This document shows positions 20,058 through 42,356 of a stretch of 64,000 bases of DNA, one piece after another (position 1 is the stretch's first letter; every line of letters starts with the position of its first letter). The translations under genes were made by a program, and so were the position numbers. The stretch is from Phycisphaeraceae bacterium. Lineage in GTDB: Bacteria; Planctomycetota; Phycisphaerae; Phycisphaerales; UBA1924. The DNA lies in assembly GCA_019636495.1 (NCBI GenBank), contig JAHBXL010000008.1, positions 62,001 through 126,000 on the forward strand. The letters are read 5' to 3'. The notes beneath the pieces were generated by a model, which was given only the letters and a program-made list of their open reading frames with translations, was not told the DNA's origin and made no database searches.

Positions 20058-21401
20058 ATGAGCACGATCTCCCCGTCCAAGCCGAAGTCAGCACCCCGGC
20101 GCGAACTGTTCAAGAGCCCGGTGTTCGATGAGGTCGGTCTTCCGCGCGACCCGAACAATCTCTACCTGCAGACGGTGGACACGATGCTCACGGCGGCGGA
20201 GATGATGGAACTGCCGCACGAGATCCAGTTGATCCTCGCGCAGCCAAAGAACGAGATCATGGTGCACTTCCCGGTGCGGATGGACAACGGGGAGTTCAAG
20301 TTGTTCAAGGGGTACCGCGTCCAGCACAACAACGCGCTGGGCCCCTACAAGGGCGGCGTGCGGTTCCACCCCGACACGCACCTTGACGATGTGAAGAGCC
20401 TGGCGTTCCTGATGACGATGAAGACGTCGCTGGTGCGCGTGCCCTTCGGCGGCGGCAAGGGCGGCATCAAGGTCGACCCGCGGAAGCACTCCAACGCGGA
20501 GATGGAGCGCATCGTTCGGCGGTTCACTACGGCGATCGCGCATCAGATCGGCCCCGACTATGACATCCCCGCGCCCGATGTGGGCTCGAACGCGCAACAC
20601 ATGGCGTGGATCGCGGACACGTTCACGTTCCTCTCTGAAATGGGCGGGCACAACCCCGAGGCCGTGGTGACGGGCAAGCCGGTTGAGTACGGCGGGTCGC
20701 TCGGCCGCGAGAAGGCGACGGGCCAGGGCCTCGTGGACGTGCTGGTGGAACTTGCGCCCGAACTGGGCATCAAGATCGAGGGCATGTCGTTCAGCCTGAT
20801 CGGCTACGGCAACGTGGGCTCGTGGACGGGCCGCATCCTCGGCCGCATGGGCGCGAAGTTGCACGCCGTGATGGACCACACCGGCTCGATCTTCAACGAC
20901 AAGGGCATCGATACCGAAGCATTGGCGCTGCACGTGGCCAAGCACGGCGGCGTTGCGGGCTTTGCGAACGCGACGCGCATCACGACCGAGGAGTTTTACA
21001 AGGCAAAGGTGGATGCGTTCATCCCCGCCGCGCTGGAGCAGATGATCAAGGAGCCCGAGGCGCACCTGATCAACGCGAAGGTGGTTGTGGAAGGCGCGAA
21101 CGCGCCGACCACACCCGCGGGCGACCGGGTCCTGAGCGAGCGCGGCATCGAAGTGATCCCCGCGATCCTCGCCAACGCCGGCGGCGTGACCGTGTCCTAC
21201 TTCGAATGGGTGCAGAACAAGAGTTGCGTGACGTGGGACGCCGAGGAGGTCGACCAGGCGCTCAACCGCCACATGGTCATGGCCGCCCGCCGCACCAAGT
21301 TGGCGCGTCAGAAGTTCAGCACCGACATGCGAACGGCTTCGTATATCGCCGCGCTGGAGAACATCGGCAAGGTGTACCAGATCCGCGGCCTCTTCCCGTG
21401 A
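20058..21401 (+). CDS. gdhA: Glutamate dehydrogenase
   Basis: The enzyme interconverts glutamate with 2-oxoglutarate and ammonia. The 447-residue protein has the substrate motifs GPYKGGVRFHPDTHLDDVKS and VPFGGGKGGIKVDPRKHS, which contain the conserved and catalytic lysines, followed by DIPAPDVGSNAQHMAW. The nucleotide domain has SLIGYGNVGSWTGRIL. The short-form length and the VEGANAPTTPAGDRVL and QNKSCVTWDAEEVD segments are those of the hexameric NAD(P)-dependent enzymes of bacteria and archaea. Coenzyme choice cannot be assigned by eye. ATG 20058 has an AGGGACCAGG purine stretch upstream. A strong terminator follows. Confidence 0.95.
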   Translation: MSTISPSKPKSAPRRELFKSPVFDEVGLPRDPNNLYLQTVDTMLTAAEMMELPHEIQLILAQPKNEIMVHFPVRMDNGEFKLFKGYRVQHNNALGPYKGGVRFHPDTHLDDVKSLAFLMTMKTSLVRVPFGGGKGGIKVDPRKHSNAEMERIVRRFTTAIAHQIGPDYDIPAPDVGSNAQHMAWIADTFTFLSEMGGHNPEAVVTGKPVEYGGSLGREKATGQGLVDVLVELAPELGIKIEGMSFSLIGYGNVGSWTGRILGRMGAKLHAVMDHTGSIFNDKGIDTEALALHVAKHGGVAGFANATRITTEEFYKAKVDAFIPAALEQMIKEPEAHLINAKVVVEGANAPTTPAGDRVLSERGIEVIPAILANAGGVTVSYFEWVQNKSCVTWDAEEVDQALNRHMVMAARRTKLARQKFSTDMRTASYIAALENIGKVYQIRGLFP

Positions 21402-33006: not shown

Positions 33007-33501
33007 TCAGCCGCGTCGGAGCGGCAGGGCCGAAGGACCGGCAGACCTCGACGCTCCATCGGGCGGGGCAGCCGGCTTGACGCACTCGGTCCTCGCATCC
33101 CGCTGCTGAAAAACGGCCATATCTGCGATCGTCGTGTTTCGCAGGAACTCGATGTGCGCTGCGCGGTGCGCGCTCCAGAATGCATGCGCGGGGCAGCCGC
33201 GCTCGTCCGAGCACGGTTGCGGGCCGAGCATGCACCGTGGCTGGACAATCGGGTCGCCCAGCGCTTCGCACAGGTCCAATAGTGTGATCTCTCGCGGATC
33301 GCGCGCGAGCACGACACCGCCGCCGATACCGCGCTGCGTCGAAACGAACCCGCGCCGTGCGAGGTGGTTGACGATCTTCGCCAGATACGCCGGGGGGATC
33401 GCACATGCCTCCGCGACGTCCTTGACGAGCAGAGGCTTGCCCTCGGCGAGCGCGATGTGACCGAGCGCGGCAGCGGCATAGCCAACGGCTTGGGCAAGCA
33501 T
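33007..33501 (-). CDS. Rrf2-family Fe-S transcriptional regulator
   Basis: Rrf2 regulators such as IscR and NsrR bind DNA through a winged helix and carry a [2Fe-2S] or [4Fe-4S] cluster. The 164-residue protein has ALAEGKPLLVKDVAEACAIP and AYLAKIVNHLARRGFVSTQR as the winged helix, with the wing RGIGGGVVLARDP. Three cluster cysteines sit at the expected spacing in CMLGPQPCSDERGCP. The C-terminal extension is Pro/Arg-rich. The start ATG 33501 has AGGAGG 11 nt upstream (33513-33518). It diverges from the cbb3 oxidase genes, so control of that locus by oxygen, NO or iron-sulfur status is plausible. Which signal it senses cannot be told from sequence. Confidence 0.88.
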   Translation of the reverse strand: MLAQAVGYAAAALGHIALAEGKPLLVKDVAEACAIPPAYLAKIVNHLARRGFVSTQRGIGGGVVLARDPREITLLDLCEALGDPIVQPRCMLGPQPCSDERGCPAHAFWSAHRAAHIEFLRNTTIADMAVFQQRDARTECVKPAAPPDGASRSAGPSALPLRRG

Positions 33502-33525
33502 GGGCTGGCAGGCCTCCTAAACAAG

Positions 33526-33554
33526 AGTATAGGATCAGTATATCCCTTTGTCAA
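33526..33554 (-). promoter_or_regulatory. Strong promoter of the Rrf2 regulator with a palindrome in its spacer
   Basis: On the minus strand TTGACA (33554-33549) is followed after exactly 17 nt by TATACT (33531-33526). Within the spacer lies GGATCAGTATATCC (33532-33545), an imperfect palindrome (GGAT...ATCC). The -35 also forms half of GTCAA-N6-TTGAC (33550-33565). These are good candidates for autoregulatory operator sites. Confidence 0.75.
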
Positions 33555-33644
33555 TGGAACTTGACCATGTATCCAAACAAATACCGTTCATGCCGGCGCG
33601 CTTGCGATCTGGCAGGAACCAATGCGATTGAGCAGGACTCGGAC

Positions 33645-33672
33645 TTGACAACCCGAGAGAAGACATGATAAT
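33645..33672 (+). promoter_or_regulatory. Probable promoter of the ccoNO operon
   Basis: TTGACA (33645-33650), a 16-nt spacer and GATAAT (33667-33672) give near-consensus sigma-70 elements. The first ccoNO codon is at 33758. The expected leader is about 75-80 nt. No clear FNR box (TTGAT-N4-ATCAA) is present. Confidence 0.65.
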
Positions 33673-33757
33673 GACGATATGTTGATATGATTGTCGATTA
33701 GTCCGCAATGCCCGTTTGTGTACTGTGCTCGAATCAACGAAACCGGAGATGGCTGCA

Positions 33758-36157
33758 ATGAGCGCGACTTCGTCGGTGACCTCGGACCGCCCCGTTCACG
33801 CCCCGGTCAACTCACAGATCGATCACGACCCCATGCACGGCGTGGAGGTACGGCCCGGGCCGATTGAGCAGTTCACCTATGACGATGCGGTCGTCCGGAA
33901 GTTCACGTTTGCGATTCTGCTGTGGGGCGTGGTGGCGATGCTTGTCGGCCTGCTGGTCGCGCTGCAACTGGTGCTGCCCGTGGCCGCGGAGACGGTGATC
34001 GGCGGGGTCCGTCCGTTCGCATGGATGGGTACGACGTTCGCGTTCCTCTACGAGACCGAGTGGCTGAGTTTCGGCCGGCTGCGGCCGCTGCACACCAACG
34101 CCGCGATCTTCGCGTTCGGGGGAAACGCGATCTTCGCGGCGGTGTACTACTCGACTCAGCGACTGTGCAAGGCGCGGATGTGGAGCGACACGCTCAGCAA
34201 CCTGCACTTCTGGGGGTGGCAGGCGATCATTGTCGCCGCGGCGTTGACGCTCCCGCTCGGGTTCACCCAGGGCAAGGAGTACGCCGAACTGGAGTGGCCC
34301 ATCGACCTGGCGATCGCGGTGGTGTGGGTCGGGTTTTTCGGCGTGAACTTCATGATGACGCTGCTCACGCGTCGCGAGCGGCACATGTACGTCGCGTTGT
34401 GGTTCTACATCGCGACGATCGCGACAGTGGCGGTGCTGCACGTCTTCAACTCGCTGGCGATCCCCGCGGGCGCGCTGAAGAGTTACTCGGTGTACGCCGG
34501 CGTGCAGGACGCGATGGTGCAGTGGTGGTACGGGCACAACGCGGTGGCGTTCTTCCTGACAACCCCGTTTCTGGGCCTGATGTACTACTTCCTGCCCAAG
34601 GCGGCCGAGCGCCCCGTGTACAGTTACCGCCTGAGCATCGTGCACTTCTGGAGCCTGGTGTTCATCTACATCTGGGCCGGGCCGCACCACCTGCACTACA
34701 CCGCGCTGCCGCAGTGGGCCAGCACGCTGGGCATGCTCTTCAGCCTCATGCTCTGGATGCCCTCGTGGGGCGGGATGATCAACGGCCTGCTGACGCTGCG
34801 AGGCGCGTGGAACAAGGTTGCGGCGGACCCGGTGCTGAAGTTCTTCGTCGTCGGGATCACCTTCTACGGCATGGCGACGTTCGAGGGCCCGATGCTCTCG
34901 ATCAAGAGCATCAACGCGCTGAGCCACTACACCGACTGGACGATCGCGCACGTGCACGGGGGCGCGCTGGGCTGGAACGGCTTCATGACCTTCGGCATGC
35001 TGTACTGGCTTGCGCCGCGGCTGTTCCAGTCGCGAACCGGCGGGCTGTGGAGCAAGCGGATGGCCGAATCGCATTTCTGGATCGGCACCATCGGCATCCT
35101 GCTCTACATCGTGCCCATCTACTGGGCGGGGATCACGCAGGGTCTGATGTGGCGAGCGTTCGATGAGAGCGGCGCGCTCCGCTTCCCGGATTTCGTCGAG
35201 ACGGTCATGAAGGTCATGCCGATGTACTGGCTCCGCGTGATCGGCGGGTCGATGTTCCTGCTGGGAATGATCCTGTGCGCCGTGAACATCATGATGACGT
35301 GGACGCTGCGGCCATCGCGCTACACGGAGCATGTGCAGTCGGCCCCGGCGCTCGGCCCGGTCTATCGCGATCCGCCCACACCCGGCTCGCGCCTGCACGC
35401 CAACACCGAGTTCGGCCACAAGGGCGACGTATTCCTGCAGGGCCGATGGCACCGGACGTGGGAGCGTCTGCCCGTCAAGTTCACCGTGTGGGTGGTGATC
35501 GCCGTCGTCGTCGCCTCGGCGCTGGAACTCGTCCCGATGGTGGTTGCGCCGATGTTCTCGACCACGTGGCGCGAGAAGAACATCCCGCGCATCGCGAGCG
35601 TGCAGCCCTACACGCCGCTGGAACTGGCCGGACGCGATGTGTACGTCGCCGAGGGCTGCTACAACTGCCACTCGCAGATGGTCCGCCCCATCTGGGCGGA
35701 GACCAAGCGCTACGGCGACTACTCCAAGCCCGGCGAGTTCGCGTACGACCATCCGTTCCAGTGGGGCTCGCGGCGCATCGGGCCGGACCTGGCCCGCATC
35801 GGCGGCCTGCGCAGTTACCAATGGCACGTGGAGCACCTCGAAGACCCGCGGATGGTGCCCGGCTCGATCATGCCCGCATACAAGCATCTGTCCACCCAGA
35901 AACTTGATTACAACGCCATCCAGCGACGGGTGAACGCGATGGCCATGATGGGCGTGCCTTACGGCGACGCCGTGAAGGGCAGCAACGCCGCGACGATGGC
36001 GAGGGAGCAGTCCGAGTCGATCGCGGCTGAGGTTGCGACGCAGGGCGGCCCGACGGGCCTTGAGGATACGAAGATGACCGCGCTGGTCGCGTACCTCCAA
36101 CGCTTGGGCACCGACCTGCACGCCCCGCCGCCGGCCGATGCCGGCGCGGGCAAGTGA
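33758..36157 (+). CDS. ccoNO: Fused cbb3 oxidase catalytic subunit CcoN and mono-heme subunit CcoO
   Basis: cbb3 oxidases are high-affinity terminal oxidases used at low oxygen. The 799-residue chain joins CcoN (about 1-520) to CcoO (about 560-760). CcoN shows LHTNAAIFAFGGNAIFAAVY, the active-site VQWWYGHNAVAFFLTTP and VFIYIWAGPHHLHYTALP with heme and copper histidines. CcoO has a membrane anchor (FTVWVVIAVVVASALELVP) and one heme site, CYNCH (634-638), in GCYNCHSQMVRPIWAE. ATG 33758 has GGAG 9 nt upstream; ATG 33749 is an alternative. Fused ccoNO is known in Bacteroidetes and some other phyla. It heads the operon. Confidence 0.95.
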   Translation: MSATSSVTSDRPVHAPVNSQIDHDPMHGVEVRPGPIEQFTYDDAVVRKFTFAILLWGVVAMLVGLLVALQLVLPVAAETVIGGVRPFAWMGTTFAFLYETEWLSFGRLRPLHTNAAIFAFGGNAIFAAVYYSTQRLCKARMWSDTLSNLHFWGWQAIIVAAALTLPLGFTQGKEYAELEWPIDLAIAVVWVGFFGVNFMMTLLTRRERHMYVALWFYIATIATVAVLHVFNSLAIPAGALKSYSVYAGVQDAMVQWWYGHNAVAFFLTTPFLGLMYYFLPKAAERPVYSYRLSIVHFWSLVFIYIWAGPHHLHYTALPQWASTLGMLFSLMLWMPSWGGMINGLLTLRGAWNKVAADPVLKFFVVGITFYGMATFEGPMLSIKSINALSHYTDWTIAHVHGGALGWNGFMTFGMLYWLAPRLFQSRTGGLWSKRMAESHFWIGTIGILLYIVPIYWAGITQGLMWRAFDESGALRFPDFVETVMKVMPMYWLRVIGGSMFLLGMILCAVNIMMTWTLRPSRYTEHVQSAPALGPVYRDPPTPGSRLHANTEFGHKGDVFLQGRWHRTWERLPVKFTVWVVIAVVVASALELVPMVVAPMFSTTWREKNIPRIASVQPYTPLELAGRDVYVAEGCYNCHSQMVRPIWAETKRYGDYSKPGEFAYDHPFQWGSRRIGPDLARIGGLRSYQWHVEHLEDPRMVPGSIMPAYKHLSTQKLDYNAIQRRVNAMAMMGVPYGDAVKGSNAATMAREQSESIAAEVATQGGPTGLEDTKMTALVAYLQRLGTDLHAPPPADAGAGK

Positions 36158-36403: not shown

Positions 36404-37000
36404 ATGAGCCGAAACAAAGCCGCTGACCCGCTGCTGAACCACGAGTATGACGGCATCCGCGAGTACGACAACCCGACGCCGGGCTGGTGGCACGTGCTGT
36501 TCCTGCTCAGCATCGTGTTCTCGTTCTTCTACTTCTTATATTATGAAGTCAACCCGGAATCCGCAACAAACGAGAGCACGCTGCTCGCCGCGCGAGTCGC
36601 CGAAACAAAGCGGATTTTCGGCGCAGTCGGCGAACTATCGCCCGACGAGGCGACGATCCAGGCCATGCGTGGCAACGCGCAGTTTCTCGAGGTGGCCGCG
36701 GGCATCTTCATCGGCAACTGCGCGCAGTGCCACGGGCGCGACGGCACCGGCGGAACGGGCACAAACCTGACAGACGACGAGTACAAAAACGTCAACCGTC
36801 TCGAGGACATCTACTCCGTCATCACGCGCGGCGCGGGCGGGCAGGCCATGCCTGCGTGGGACAACCGGCTCTCGCAGAACGAACGGGTGATCCTCGCGGC
36901 GTATGTCGCGAACCTCCGAGGCTCGGCAACGGGCGGCAAGGGACCCGAGGGCAAGGCCATCGCGCCCTGGCCGCCGATCCCCGCGCCGGAGAAGAATTAG
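36404..37000 (+). CDS. ccoP: cbb3 oxidase cytochrome subunit CcoP, single-heme form
   Basis: CcoP feeds electrons from soluble cytochrome c into the oxidase. The 198-residue protein keeps the family N-terminus (HEYDGIREYDNPTPGWWHVL) and an anchor helix (FLLSIVFSFFYFLYYEVNP). Only one heme motif is present, CAQCH (106-110), with distal AMPAWDNRLSQNE. Most CcoP proteins are about 300 residues with two hemes, so this is a short, mono-heme version. A small cluster of rare codons (TTA TAT TAT) falls at the end of the anchor helix near 36536-36545. Cytochrome c domain and context make the call firm. Confidence 0.9.
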   Translation: MSRNKAADPLLNHEYDGIREYDNPTPGWWHVLFLLSIVFSFFYFLYYEVNPESATNESTLLAARVAETKRIFGAVGELSPDEATIQAMRGNAQFLEVAAGIFIGNCAQCHGRDGTGGTGTNLTDDEYKNVNRLEDIYSVITRGAGGQAMPAWDNRLSQNERVILAAYVANLRGSATGGKGPEGKAIAPWPPIPAPEKN

Positions 37001-37073: not shown

Positions 37074-38576
37074 ATGAACGCCACGATTCCCACTCCCCCT
37101 TCCCCCCACACCTCCCCGGCTCCGACGGGCGCGTCCCCCGAAGGAACGGGCATCCTGTCGACGCTGAACGACGATGGGACGCGCCGGTGGCTGATGCCGC
37201 GGGTCTCGCCGGGACGATTCCTGACGGCGCGCCGGGCGGTCGCGTACCTGCTCATCGCCATCTTCACGCTGATCCCGTACATCGAGATTGGGGGCAAGCC
37301 GCTGGTCCTGCTGGACATCGCCTCGCGTCGGTTCACGCTGTTCGGCAAGACGTTCCTGCCCACCGACACGCTGCTGATGGCCCTGCTCATGGTCGGGGTC
37401 TTCCTGGCCATCTTCTTCTTCACCGCGTTGTTCGGCCGGGTGTGGTGCGGCTGGGCGTGCCCGCAGACGGTGTACATGGAGTTCCTTTACCGGCCGATCG
37501 AGCGACTGTTCGAGGGATCGCCGGGCCGCGTGAGATCGGGCGGGTTCCGCGGCAGCGCACCAGCCAAGGGGCTGAAATACGTGGCCTTCGTCGCGTGCTC
37601 GGCGTTTCTCGCGCACACGTTTCTCGCGTATTTCGTCGGGGTTGAGCAACTGCGCCATTGGATCTTCGGTTCACCGTTGAATCACCCTATCGGCTTTGGT
37701 GTGGTGGTGGTCGTGACGCTCCTGATGCTCGCGGACTTCGGCTTCTTCCGAGAGCAAATCTGCCTGGTCGCGTGCCCCTACGGCCGGATGCAGGCCGCGC
37801 TCCTGGACCGCAACTCGCTGATCATCAGTTATGACCGGGCCCGCGGCGAACCGCGCGGCAAGGGCAGGCGCGAGCCGCGGGCCACGGCGCCGGTCGCGCT
37901 CACCATCGGCGCGACGGATGCCGCCGCGGCGACGATGCCGCCGGCCCTGGGCGATTGCATCGACTGCCGCATGTGCGTGACCACCTGCCCCACCGGCATC
38001 GACATCCGCAACGGCCTGCAGATGGAGTGCATCGGGTGCGCGCAGTGCATCGACGCGTGCGACGCGGTCATGGACAAGATCGGCCTGCCGCGTGGGCTGG
38101 TTCGTTACAGTTCGCAGTCGGCGATGTCGGGCGCGGCGCGCCGTATCTTGCGTCCGCGGGTCGTCGTGTACTTTGCCGTTCTGACCGTCGTCGCGACGGC
38201 ATTCACGCTGTTGCTTTCAACGATGGGTGGCATGGACCTGACGGTCCTGCGAGGCCTTGGCCAGCCCTACACCTTGCTCGAGGGCGGTCGCGTGAGCAAT
38301 CCGGTGAAACTCCGCATTGTGAACCGATCGGACATGACCCGCCAGATCGGCGTCGAGGTCGTATCACCCGCGTCGGCATCGATGCACATCGACCCGGCCG
38401 TGCTGACGATCGCCCCCGGCGAGTCGGCGACAGCCGTCGGCTCGCTGTATGCGTCGGACGAGGACTTTGCGGACGGTCGGTGCGTGGTCACGTTGAGGAC
38501 CGTGGCGGAGGGAGGGCAGTCGCGAGAGGCGCGGTTCATCATGACTGGGCCGCGGCGGAAGGGAGAACGACCATGA
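37074..38576 (+). CDS. ccoG: Cytochrome oxidase maturation protein CcoG (FixG/RdxA)
   Basis: CcoG is a polytopic Fe-S protein that reduces copper for cbb3 assembly. The 500-residue chain has early membrane helices (AVAYLLIAIFTLIPYIEIG, LLMALLMVGVFLAIFFFTAL), the GRVWCGWACPQTVYMEFL segment and LVACPYGRMQAALLD. Two ferredoxin-type cluster motifs are present, CIDCRMCVTTCPTGIDI and CIGCAQCIDACD. An Ig-like C-terminal domain ends it. ATG 37074 begins the Pro/Thr-rich amino end; upstream in-frame codons overlap the ccoP region and are unlikely. Its stop overlaps the ccoH start by ATGA. Confidence 0.95.
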   Translation: MNATIPTPPSPHTSPAPTGASPEGTGILSTLNDDGTRRWLMPRVSPGRFLTARRAVAYLLIAIFTLIPYIEIGGKPLVLLDIASRRFTLFGKTFLPTDTLLMALLMVGVFLAIFFFTALFGRVWCGWACPQTVYMEFLYRPIERLFEGSPGRVRSGGFRGSAPAKGLKYVAFVACSAFLAHTFLAYFVGVEQLRHWIFGSPLNHPIGFGVVVVVTLLMLADFGFFREQICLVACPYGRMQAALLDRNSLIISYDRARGEPRGKGRREPRATAPVALTIGATDAAAATMPPALGDCIDCRMCVTTCPTGIDIRNGLQMECIGCAQCIDACDAVMDKIGLPRGLVRYSSQSAMSGAARRILRPRVVVYFAVLTVVATAFTLLLSTMGGMDLTVLRGLGQPYTLLEGGRVSNPVKLRIVNRSDMTRQIGVEVVSPASASMHIDPAVLTIAPGESATAVGSLYASDEDFADGRCVVTLRTVAEGGQSREARFIMTGPRRKGERP

Positions 38577-39049
38577 AGCGTCTCAACCTGTTCCCGGGGA
38601 TCATCTTCGCGCTGCTCGGACTGAACTTCGTCATCGTCGGGATCACGGTGTACGCGGCCAACAGCGACGGGGGCGCGGTGATCGAGCCCAACTACTACCA
38701 GAGAGCCCTGCATTGGGACGACCAGCGCGCGCTCGAGGAGCGCGGTCGCGTGCTGGGTTGGAGCGCGGGCGTGGAACTGACGGTCAAAGACGGTGCAACC
38801 GCGATCGGCGTGAAACTCGCGGATCGGGCGGGCGATCCGATCGGCGGGGCCACGGTCCGAGCACTTACGTTCCGTAGCGCGGATGCGGGTCGTCGGCACG
38901 AACTGATCCTCCGAGAGGTCGGCCCCGGGCGATATGAGGGCCTGGTTCCGACCAGGGGCGGGGGCGCTTGGCAGGTGGAACTTCGCATCCAGGCCCGCGG
39001 CGAGTTGTTCACGTACGTCGCGAGCGTATCCGCCGAGGGGGCTCCATGA
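38573..39049 (+). CDS. ccoH: cbb3 oxidase assembly protein CcoH (FixH)
   Basis: FixH/CcoH is a single-pass membrane protein needed for cbb3 assembly. The 158-residue protein has one helix near the N-terminus (IIFALLGLNFVIVGITVYAA), then NYYQRALHWDDQRA, which is characteristic of the family, and a beta-rich periplasmic domain (RAGDPIGGATVRALTF). It overlaps ccoG upstream and the TauE/SafE-like gene downstream, each by four bases. Translation is therefore probably coupled along the whole assembly block. Confidence 0.9.
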   Translation: MKRLNLFPGIIFALLGLNFVIVGITVYAANSDGGAVIEPNYYQRALHWDDQRALEERGRVLGWSAGVELTVKDGATAIGVKLADRAGDPIGGATVRALTFRSADAGRRHELILREVGPGRYEGLVPTRGGGAWQVELRIQARGELFTYVASVSAEGAP

Positions 39050-39843
39050 CCGCGCTCCTCCTGGCCGTGCTCGCGGCGAGTCTGCTCGGCAGTTCTCACT
39101 GCGCCGGCATGTGCGGCGCGTTCGTGCTGTTCGCCGTCGCGACGCCCGATGACGCGCCCAGTGTCTGGCGGTCTCGCGCGATGCTGAACGCGGCGTACAA
39201 CCTCGGGCGCCTGGTCACGTATTCGCTGCTCGGGGCCGTTGCAGGGCTGCTCGGGGCCGGGCTTGATCTGGGCGGATCGATGGTCGGCGCGCAGCGCACC
39301 GCCGCGGTCGTGGCGGGCGCGATGATGATCGGCTTCGGGGTCGTCGTCCTTCTGCGGGCGCGGGGCGTTCGGGTCGGGCGCCTGCCGGTGCCGGGCGTGG
39401 TGACGCGCATGGTCGCGGGCGGGCACAGGGCTGTGGCCGATGCCGCGCCGATCAATCGGGCATGGACTGTCGGAATGCTCACGACGCTCCTGCCGTGCGG
39501 TTGGCTGTACGCGTTCGCCATCACCGCGGCGGGAACGGGCAGCCCGCTGTCGGGCGCGGCGGTGATGGCCATCTTCTGGGCGGGGACGTTGCCCGTGCTC
39601 GCGGCGGTGGGCATCGGGGCGCAGGCGCTGGCGGGCCCGCTGCGCTCGAGGTTGCCCGTGCTCACGAGTCTGCTGCTGGTCGGTGTGGGCGTGTACACGG
39701 TGCTGGGGCGGATGACCTTGCCGACACTGGCGCGACCGCAGGCGGCGGTTTCGGTTGAGACGGTCGAAGGCCGAACGATCGTGCGCACCTCGCACGATCT
39801 TCCCGAATGCTGCCACGGTCCCTCGGCATTGGAGAAGCCATGA
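39046..39843 (+). CDS. TauE/SafE-like (UreH/CcoX-type) membrane protein
   Basis: The 265-residue protein has about six helices in two halves, each with a Gly-Ser-His or Gly-Cys rich motif: LAASLLGSSHCAGMCGAFVL and LTTLLPCGWLYAFAITAA. This matches the sulfite-exporter TauE/SafE family that is commonly found between ccoH and ccoI. In several bacteria this gene is thought to help deliver copper to the oxidase; the His-Cys-Cys-rich SHDLPECCHGPS tail supports metal binding. ATG 39046 overlaps the ccoH stop and the gene ends overlapping ccoI. The substrate is not established. Confidence 0.82.
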   Translation: MTALLLAVLAASLLGSSHCAGMCGAFVLFAVATPDDAPSVWRSRAMLNAAYNLGRLVTYSLLGAVAGLLGAGLDLGGSMVGAQRTAAVVAGAMMIGFGVVVLLRARGVRVGRLPVPGVVTRMVAGGHRAVADAAPINRAWTVGMLTTLLPCGWLYAFAITAAGTGSPLSGAAVMAIFWAGTLPVLAAVGIGAQALAGPLRSRLPVLTSLLLVGVGVYTVLGRMTLPTLARPQAAVSVETVEGRTIVRTSHDLPECCHGPSALEKP

Positions 39844-42356
39844 GCGCCGACACGCGCACATCAACTCCCTCGCCTCAATGCGCCGACGTTGCGTGCTCGC
39901 ACTGCGGGCTTGCAGTCCCGACAGGTCTTGTCGAGCACGGCGCATCGGAGCAGTTCTGCTGCGCAGGTTGCCGCACGGCGTACGCCGTGATCCACTCGTG
40001 CGGGCTCGACCGCTACTACGCCCTGCGCGAGAAGTTGGAGGATCGGGAAGACCGCGCGCCGGCGCAATCGACCCGCGCCCGCTACGCCGAGTTTGATGAT
40101 CCGGCGTTCGCCGAGTTGTATTGCCGACCGGCGGAACCGGGGGCCGCGCCCGGGCACGGCCTGTGGTCGTGCGAGTTGTTCCTGCAGTGCGTGCACTGCG
40201 CGGCGTGCGTATGGCTGGTGGAAAGACTGCCGCGGGTGTGCGACGGCGTCGTGGAGTCTCGGCTGGATCTTCGGCGCGGCATGGTGCGTGTTGTGTGGGA
40301 TGCCGAGCGGGTGAACCTGTCGCGGATCGCGCGTGCCCTGGATTCGCTGGGCTACCCGCCGCACCCGGCGCGCGATGCGAACGACCGCGACCTGCGCCGG
40401 CGCGAGGACCGACGACAACTGGTGCGTGTCGGCGTGGCGGGAGCCTGCGCGGGCAACGTCATGCTGCTGGGACTTGCGCTGTACGCCGGACTGTTCGACG
40501 TGATGGAATCGGCCTACGCCGCGCTGTTCCGATGGGCCAGCATGGGGATCTCGGTGGTCTCGCTGGCATGGCCGGGCTCGGTGTTCTTCCGCTCGGCGTG
40601 GGCCGCCCTGCGCACACGTACGATGCACCTGGACGTACCGATCGCACTGGCGCTGGGCGCGGGCGGGGTGTGGGGCGTGGTCAACACGCTCCGCGGGGCG
40701 GGCGAGATCTACTTCGACTCGCTGAGCGTGCTGGTCTTCCTGCTGCTGGTGGGCCGGTTCATCCAGCACCGACAGCAACGGCGGAGCGCAGACTCGGTCG
40801 AGATGCTCTTCTCGCTGACGCCGACCAGCGCGCTGCTCGTCGATGAGGACCCGGACGGCGGGCCGGGGTACACGCGAGAGGTCTCGATCCAGAGCCTCTG
40901 CGCGGGACAGATGGTCGAGGTGCGCGCGGGCGCATCGGTGCCTGTGGATGGCGTCGTGGTCGCGGGACTGTCTCAGGTCGATCAGTCGCTGCTGACCGGC
41001 GAATCCCGGGCAGTGACGGTCGAGACCGGCGACCGCGTTGCGGCCGGCACGGTCAACCTTGCTTCCACGATCCGCGTTCGCGTCGAGGCCACGGGCGCCC
41101 AGACCCGCATCGGCAGACTCATGGCGCTGGTGCAGGACTCACTCGGACGCCGCGCGCCGATCGTCCGACTGGCGGATCGAATCGCGGGGTGGTTCCTCGC
41201 GGGCATGCTCGGGCTCGCAGCGTTGACGCTCGGCCTGTGGCTGGCGCTCGACCCGGCGAACCCTTCGCTCGCGGTCGATCACGCCGTCGCGCTGCTGGTC
41301 GTCACGTGCCCGTGCGCGCTCGGTCTCGCGACGCCGCTGGCATTGACGGTTTCGATCGGCCGCGCGGCCCGCCGCGGCATCCTCATCAAGGGCGGCGGCG
41401 TGCTGCAGGCGCTCGCGTCGCCGGGCACGATGGTCCTCGACAAGACCGGCACGCTGACGGTTGGCCGGATGCGCGTCGTGCGCACGCGGCTTGATCGGGA
41501 AACTCGCGCCGCCGTGTGCGCGATCGAACTACACTCGACGCACCCGATCGCCCGCGCCATCGTTGAGGCATTCGCGTCTGCGGATGCTGACGAGGCTGCC
41601 GACGTCGCGCATACGCTCGGCGGCGGCATGGAGGGCACAGTGCGCGGACGACGGTTGGTCATCGGTTCGCCCACCTTCATCGCTTCCCGCATCGGCGGCC
41701 TCTCCGACTCCGATGCCCGCGCCGTGGCCGATCTCACGTCCGCCGCGCTCACCCCAGTGCTCGTTGCAGAGGACGGGCGCATCATCGGTTCAATCGGACT
41801 CGGCGATCCGCTGCGGCAGGACTCGTCCGGCGCGGTCGCCGATCTGCGATCGCGCGGGTGGAACCCGGTTCTACTGTCCGGCGACCATGAAACGGTCGTC
41901 GCCGCCGCGGCGACCGACCTCGGCCTGCCCCGAGCCTCGGCCCGCGGCGGCGCCACGCCCGAGGACAAGGTGGGCGCGGTGCGGGACCTCTCGTCGAGCG
42001 GCGCGACAGTCGTTATGGTGGGCGACGGCGTGAACGATGCGGCCGCGCTGGCCGCGGCGACCGTGGGCATCGCCGTGCACGGGGGCGCAGAGGCGAGCCT
42101 GGCCGCGGCGGATGTGTACCTCGCGCGGCCGGGCCTGAGCCCCGTGCTGGAACTGTGCGAGGGCGCGCGGCGGACCATGCGGACGATCAGGATTTGCCTC
42201 GCGGCGTCGCTGTGCTACAACGTGGCCGCGGCTTCTCTGTGCGTTGCCGGGCTGATCAGCCCGCTGATCGCGGCGGTGGTCATGCCCGCCAGTTCACTGA
42301 CCGTGCTGGCTCTGTGCGTGCGTTCGGGCGCGTTTCGAAGCGGGAGGTCGTCATGA
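39840..42356 (+). CDS. ccoI: Copper-translocating P-type ATPase CcoI (FixI)
   Basis: CcoI exports copper across the membrane for insertion into cbb3 oxidase. The 838-residue chain begins with a ferredoxin-like metal-binding region (CSHCGLAVPTGL, CCAGC), then a CVHCAACVWLVE heavy-metal-associated domain. Six or more helices include the transport motif VVTCPCALGLATPLAL (CPC). The phosphorylation loop is VLDKTGTLTVG, and the hinge is VMVGDGVNDAAALAAA. The HP motif of the nucleotide domain is in ELHSTHPIARAI. ATG 39840 overlaps the previous stop by ATGA. The ccoS ATG begins within its own stop. Confidence 0.95.
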   Translation: MSADTRTSTPSPQCADVACSHCGLAVPTGLVEHGASEQFCCAGCRTAYAVIHSCGLDRYYALREKLEDREDRAPAQSTRARYAEFDDPAFAELYCRPAEPGAAPGHGLWSCELFLQCVHCAACVWLVERLPRVCDGVVESRLDLRRGMVRVVWDAERVNLSRIARALDSLGYPPHPARDANDRDLRRREDRRQLVRVGVAGACAGNVMLLGLALYAGLFDVMESAYAALFRWASMGISVVSLAWPGSVFFRSAWAALRTRTMHLDVPIALALGAGGVWGVVNTLRGAGEIYFDSLSVLVFLLLVGRFIQHRQQRRSADSVEMLFSLTPTSALLVDEDPDGGPGYTREVSIQSLCAGQMVEVRAGASVPVDGVVVAGLSQVDQSLLTGESRAVTVETGDRVAAGTVNLASTIRVRVEATGAQTRIGRLMALVQDSLGRRAPIVRLADRIAGWFLAGMLGLAALTLGLWLALDPANPSLAVDHAVALLVVTCPCALGLATPLALTVSIGRAARRGILIKGGGVLQALASPGTMVLDKTGTLTVGRMRVVRTRLDRETRAAVCAIELHSTHPIARAIVEAFASADADEAADVAHTLGGGMEGTVRGRRLVIGSPTFIASRIGGLSDSDARAVADLTSAALTPVLVAEDGRIIGSIGLGDPLRQDSSGAVADLRSRGWNPVLLSGDHETVVAAAATDLGLPRASARGGATPEDKVGAVRDLSSSGATVVMVGDGVNDAAALAAATVGIAVHGGAEASLAAADVYLARPGLSPVLELCEGARRTMRTIRICLAASLCYNVAAASLCVAGLISPLIAAVVMPASSLTVLALCVRSGAFRSGRSS

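Follow-up and report, generated by a model that had tools for sequence, protein, structure and literature searches.

We propose that the Rrf2-family protein encoded next to the cbb3 oxidase genes in this DNA is a dedicated Fe-S repressor that controls both its own gene and the oxidase through one operator at each promoter, a reading to which we assign a probability of roughly 0.8. The two operators, their conservation and their positions on the promoters, together with the conserved ligands and fold of the regulator, come directly out of the computation, and from them we infer that Rrf2 binds both operators, represses and carries an Fe-S cluster. An earlier note on this DNA had already suggested that an Fe-S Rrf2 protein represses itself and may control the oxidase, and that suggestion gains support from the candidate operator on each promoter from the conservation of three cysteines and a histidine as predicted ligands, and from the lack of FNR boxes.

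The window, i.e. the whole stretch of 64,000 nt that was analysed, corresponds to C34:62001-126000 of a 4.08-Mb genome. Within it, rrf2 (33007..33501, - strand) encodes a 164-aa regulator with the motif C90-X6-C97-X5-C103-X2-H106, recognized by Pfam PF02082 and NCBIfam TIGR00738, and is transcribed away from a cbb3 oxidase operon on the + strand. This operon begins with ccoNO, encoding fused subunits I and II (33758..36157; NF011053, 1181 bits, cut-off 1080), followed by a gene for a ccoP-like subunit III with one cytochrome c domain (36404..37000; Pfam FixP_N and Cytochrome_CBB3), ccoG (37077..38576; TIGR02745, 415.5 bits, cut-off 316.7), fixH/ccoH (38573..39049; Pfam FixH), a gene for a membrane protein with a DsbD_2 domain (39043..39843; Pfam DsbD_2) and one for a ccoI-type copper P-type ATPase (39807..42356; TIGR01511, 431.9 bits, cut-off 397). 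The ccoP-like subunit, at 198 aa, has a single CxxCH motif and scores below the CcoP equivalog cut-off.

Both promoters read in the earlier note are present as consensus predictions: TTGACA-N17-TATACT for rrf2 on the - strand (33554..33526) and TTGACA-N16-GATAAT for cco on the + strand (33645..33672). The search yielded three promoter-like sites, where shuffles would give 0.4. The palindrome GGATCAGTATATCC, which the note had placed in the spacer of the rrf2 promoter, is indeed found there (33532-33545), where it forms the core, the central GA-N8-TC, of a longer 28-bp dyad, GAGTATAGGATCAGTATATCCCTTTGTC (33525..33552). This dyad, which we call operator 1 on the basis of the motif model and its conservation, spans the rrf2 -10, the spacer and most of the -35. 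A further occurrence of this element, operator 2 (GATATGTTGATATGATTGTCGATTAGTC, 33676..33703, identified in the same way), had not been reported in the note; its first base lies 4 bp past the cco -10, so that it covers the expected transcription start. The two copies score 19.4 and 20.3 with the position weight matrix (PWM), compared with null maxima of 17.7 and 17.8, respectively, in 3000 dinucleotide shuffles; elsewhere in the window no separate place scores above 12.2. A relative from the same genus retains 27/28 bases of operator 1 and 28/28 of operator 2 (55/56 together), compared with 115/188 (61%) of the remaining intergenic bases.

The family-wide comparison covered the flanks of close Rrf2 relatives encoded in 68 genomes of the family; in 56 of the family's regions rrf2 and ccoNO are transcribed divergently. 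Expectation-maximisation motif searches, run separately on 95 bp of the rrf2 side and 135 bp of the cco side, independently recovered the same element de novo on both sides. The combined model is the 20-bp GAcwAaanGAyc......TC, and its extension by aligned sites gave the 28-bp dyad GA-N6-GA-N8-TC-N6-TC, in which mirror positions 24 and 27 prefer T. GA-N6-GA-N8-TC is present in 55/56 divergent regions as against 5.2 after shuffling, and 44 of the 50 non-redundant regions have the dyad on both sides (PWM at least 11). Operators on both sides overlap the best predicted promoter in 44/44 scorable regions, an overlap that is partly due to common TTGAC letters and thus favours repression without proving it. 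When motifs were trained anew, from random starts, with one half of the family and the other half was scored at a 99% shuffle threshold, 18-23 (left) and 22-27 (right) of 27-29 held-out regions lay above it, and 14/27 and 22/29 did so on both sides; because the halves have genera in common, these are related rather than independent samples. Finally, 9-10 of 11 orphan rrf2 orthologs, i.e. those with no adjacent ccoN, have the element upstream of rrf2, as autoregulation would predict.

These comparisons also refine the motifs proposed earlier. The palindrome in the rrf2 spacer stands as the core of the operator, and it is kept in orthologous regions in the form of GA-N6-GA-N8-TC; the literal GGAT-N6-ATCC, however, occurs in only 5/56 regions and was rejected as a consensus, and its one further occurrence in the window (at 21011) makes the literal palindrome weak evidence by itself. 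GTCAA-N6-TTGAC is present at 33550-33565, but its spacing is N10 in the sister species, and it was rejected as a second, conserved palindrome. The observation that FNR-type sites are not visible held true at the family level, where their frequency in the 56 regions is about that of shuffles, and FNR control of cco was rejected on these grounds. The best matches to a TTGAT-N4-ATCAA box upstream of ccoN in these regions have 2-5 mismatches, again about as in shuffles.

The regulon within the organism's own genome was addressed by pattern searches across the 4.08 Mb. The dyad matches only operators 1 and 2 (reversed-pattern control, 0), although the pattern had been relaxed at one position to admit the cco-side copy, so that this match is not fully independent of operator 2. 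Allowing one mismatch added four further places, none of them a convincing third target, and a wider regulon was therefore rejected. The best of the four (C23:215473-215500, PWM 19.1) sits between the ends of converging genes, with no promoter in sight (G000, L104), and the remaining three have no PWM match of at least 12 at the site. Across 60 family genomes the strict dyad matched 31 times and its reversed control 3 times, and rrf2 or rrf2-cco accounts for 21 of the 31. An extra, perfectly conserved dyad is present in three genomes of one genus (L155 ~2859 in G064, L156 ~2449 in G062; also G065) upstream of a protein of ~200 aa with no Pfam match at 1e-8.

The Rrf2 protein passes the superfamily cut-offs (99.6 bits for PF02082, cut-off 30; 96.4 bits for TIGR00738, cut-off 73.3) but misses those of all the named subfamilies, scoring 55.1 bits for the IscR equivalog (cut-off 207.55), 34.9 for NsrR (182), 47.2 for RirA (193) and 41.6 for CymR (195), and falling far below the cut-off of the Xanthomonas-type SUF regulator model; it thus belongs to an unassigned Rrf2 subfamily. 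All 70 orthologs have Cys90, Cys97 and Cys103, and 66 of them have His106, so three sensor-loop cysteines and a further ligand are conserved, as in Fe-S-type members of the family, and the cluster itself is predicted from the sequence. An alignment-based AlphaFold2 model (pLDDT 93) has the winged-helix Rrf2 fold, with RsrR, CymR and IscR as its top Foldseek matches (E down to 1e-7). The IscR recognition-helix positions S40/E43/Q44 align with A/A/K, consistent with an operator unlike that of IscR. In Rrf2-DNA structures a centre of ~7 bp is free of base contacts, the recognition helix makes its contacts ~4-6 bp out and the wing contacts A/T-rich DNA at ~10 (PMC9338935). The 28-bp dyad agrees with this geometry, having an unconserved centre, recognition bases at ~5 bp and A/T at ~9-10 bp from the centre.

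Rrf2 and ccoN are strongly linked in this Phycisphaerae family but only patchily in other families of the order, where a related element, ATA.AAAGATA.A.TTATCC, lies upstream of ccoN. It should be noted that the organism names used here are the record titles of metagenome bins, some of which are doubtful: the rrf2-cco regions of L229 and L268 are typical of Phycisphaerae, which makes the titles of these records, Cyanobacteria bacterium CYA and Leptolyngbya sp. PLA1, look wrong. One genus has an operon with nrfC/nrfD-like genes that is led by the operator and the gene for a more distant Rrf2 (48-49% identical). At L165 2458-5165 (G007; also G047), the operator, rrf2 and genes for a 4Fe-4S (NrfC-like) protein and NrfD form one apparent operon, and ccoN, elsewhere in that genome, has a different Rrf2. 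A 54% identical Rrf2 from a groundwater planctomycete bin (L269 1-3441) is divergent from cox2/cox1-type oxidase genes, with no clear operator match in this stretch. In Trueperaceae, genes for Rrf2 relatives that are 55-59% identical (56-59% in L251, L256, L265, L267; also L250, L257) lie ahead of [NiFe]-hydrogenase structural genes or hypA/B/F. The model trained on planctomycetes detects sites in front of both rrf2 and the hydrogenase structural genes, with shuffle p values of 0.000 to 0.013 in 13/14 stretches and none in L250.

Based on this analysis, we can outline how the rrf2-cco intergenic region might work as a divergent switch with two operators. An Rrf2 dimer on operator 1, over the -10 to -35 of its own promoter, would repress rrf2, and a dimer on operator 2, over the cco start region, would repress the cbb3 oxidase. 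An Fe-S cluster would be held at the Cys3-His site, and its state would govern DNA binding: with plentiful oxygen (cluster oxidised or lost) the genes would be repressed, and at low oxygen release would allow the high-affinity oxidase to be made when needed. The presence of a conserved dyad on each promoter, one operator per divergent promoter as in a divergent autorepressor, makes it very probable that the regulator represses both rrf2 and cco, and there are precedents for the parts of this scheme. Loss of IscR in Caulobacter raises expression of a cytochrome cbb3-type operon (PMC11475020), E. coli IscR represses hya, the hydrogenase-1 genes, at a type 2 site (PMC12594620, PMC8593673), and the region between the RsrR gene and its divergent neighbour holds two RsrR sites (PMC5015018).

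Two points argue against this simple scheme: G061 and G113 have rrf2 and ccoN on separate contigs and lack a convincing site ahead of ccoN, and eight regions without an adjacent rrf2 carry a similar element before ccoN (score above 12.3), suggesting that more than one Rrf2 protein may read it. The latter regions lend some weight to the idea that a different factor, or an Rrf2 from another locus, recognises the dyads and that the neighbouring rrf2 is linked by chance, as does the presence of three other Rrf2 genes in the genome. Nonetheless, only one weak operator match (12.7) was found around those three genes, orphan rrf2 genes retain the element in their own upstream regions, and in Trueperaceae, by record title another phylum, it accompanies this Rrf2 at hydrogenase genes, all of which leaves that idea improbable. 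That both the palindrome and the promoter matches arose by chance in the AT-rich spacer of a GC-rich genome might have seemed conceivable from the second GGAT-N6-ATCC in the window, but the shuffle, genome-wide, split-half and conservation statistics refute it, and we consider it practically negligible.

The signal, along with the cluster state that binds, is the least certain part of the model. If Rrf2 is the repressor of both genes, we would put the odds that it responds to oxygen, repressing in air and releasing at low oxygen or on cluster reduction, at about even; the targets are mostly low-oxygen functions, and together with the IscR precedents at hydrogenase-1 and Caulobacter cbb3 they make oxygen the most likely signal. 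The direction of such a response is tentative, because a cbb3 repressor needs an aerobic active form, but the binding of IscR at type 1 sites is lost on oxidation. With the same repressor and operators, the signal might instead be iron or Fe-S sufficiency, the holo-protein repressing and cluster loss upon iron shortage or oxidative stress derepressing, as for IscR at isc. The Cys3-His ligands are those of IscR, and the holo form is the repressor for IscR type 1 sites and for RisR (PMC9973013). However, rrf2 is not beside isc/suf genes, the targets seen in this DNA and in its relatives belong to respiration or hydrogenase, and it is difficult to see why an oxidase rich in haem and copper should be raised when iron is short, so that we regard an iron signal as rather unlikely. 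Slightly less likely again is a response to nitric oxide as in NsrR, with cbb3 induction aiding respiration or NO reduction. The CX6CX5C spacing, which resembles that of some NsrR proteins, and the relative in an operon with nrfC/nrfD-like genes speak for it; against it are the low score with the NsrR model and the absence of hmp, nor or hcp among the targets seen. Moreover, the fourth cluster ligand of ScNsrR is Asp8 (PMC5411485), which aligns with an invariant Gly or a conserved Tyr here, while His106 is conserved.

Control of cbb3 oxidases is known mainly from FNR/FixK systems. Our open-access search found no literature on an Rrf2 protein as a local regulator of cbb3 genes, nor on cbb3 regulation in Phycisphaerales. 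The regulator is not known to have been described before and would act like known Rrf2 relatives. More tentatively, it may represent a new Rrf2 subfamily with its own 28-bp operator that serves as the standard oxygen/redox switch of high-affinity respiration in this Phycisphaerae family, in the place that FNR/FixK holds in Proteobacteria, and that has moved with its operator to the [NiFe]-hydrogenase genes of Deinococcota (Trueperaceae). The prediction of a local Fe-S Rrf2 repressor acting at a defined operator would extend to a whole planctomycete family, most members of which are known from metagenomes only, and it ties planctomycete cbb3 control to hydrogenase across phyla. It also yields an exact predicted binding site and a route to the targets of an uncharacterised regulator.

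Among known systems, NsrR is likewise a three-Cys Rrf2 Fe-S repressor, but our protein is without the Asp8 ligand and fails the NsrR model, and its predicted targets are not NO-detoxification genes. RisR of Myxococcus xanthus is also an Rrf2 Fe-S repressor with a GAC...GTC-type palindrome over promoter elements, in its case with a GAC-N7-GTC core and isc/suf targets. IscR of E. coli and Caulobacter has the Rrf2 fold, Cys3-His ligands and autoregulation in common with the system proposed here, and it too represses O2-linked respiratory or hydrogenase genes. However, it is a global regulator of Fe-S homeostasis within isc/suf, whereas the rrf2 gene of this family stands opposite ccoNO rather than among isc/suf genes, its product would be dedicated to cco, it scores far below the IscR cut-offs, and its operator is a different dyad. 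RsrR of Streptomyces venezuelae, the best PDB sequence match and top Foldseek match, is an Rrf2 Fe-S redox regulator with the same arrangement of two sites between its own and a divergent gene; it differs, according to the literature, in its Cys, Glu and His ligands, its 11-3-11 operator and its NAD(P)H-linked targets.
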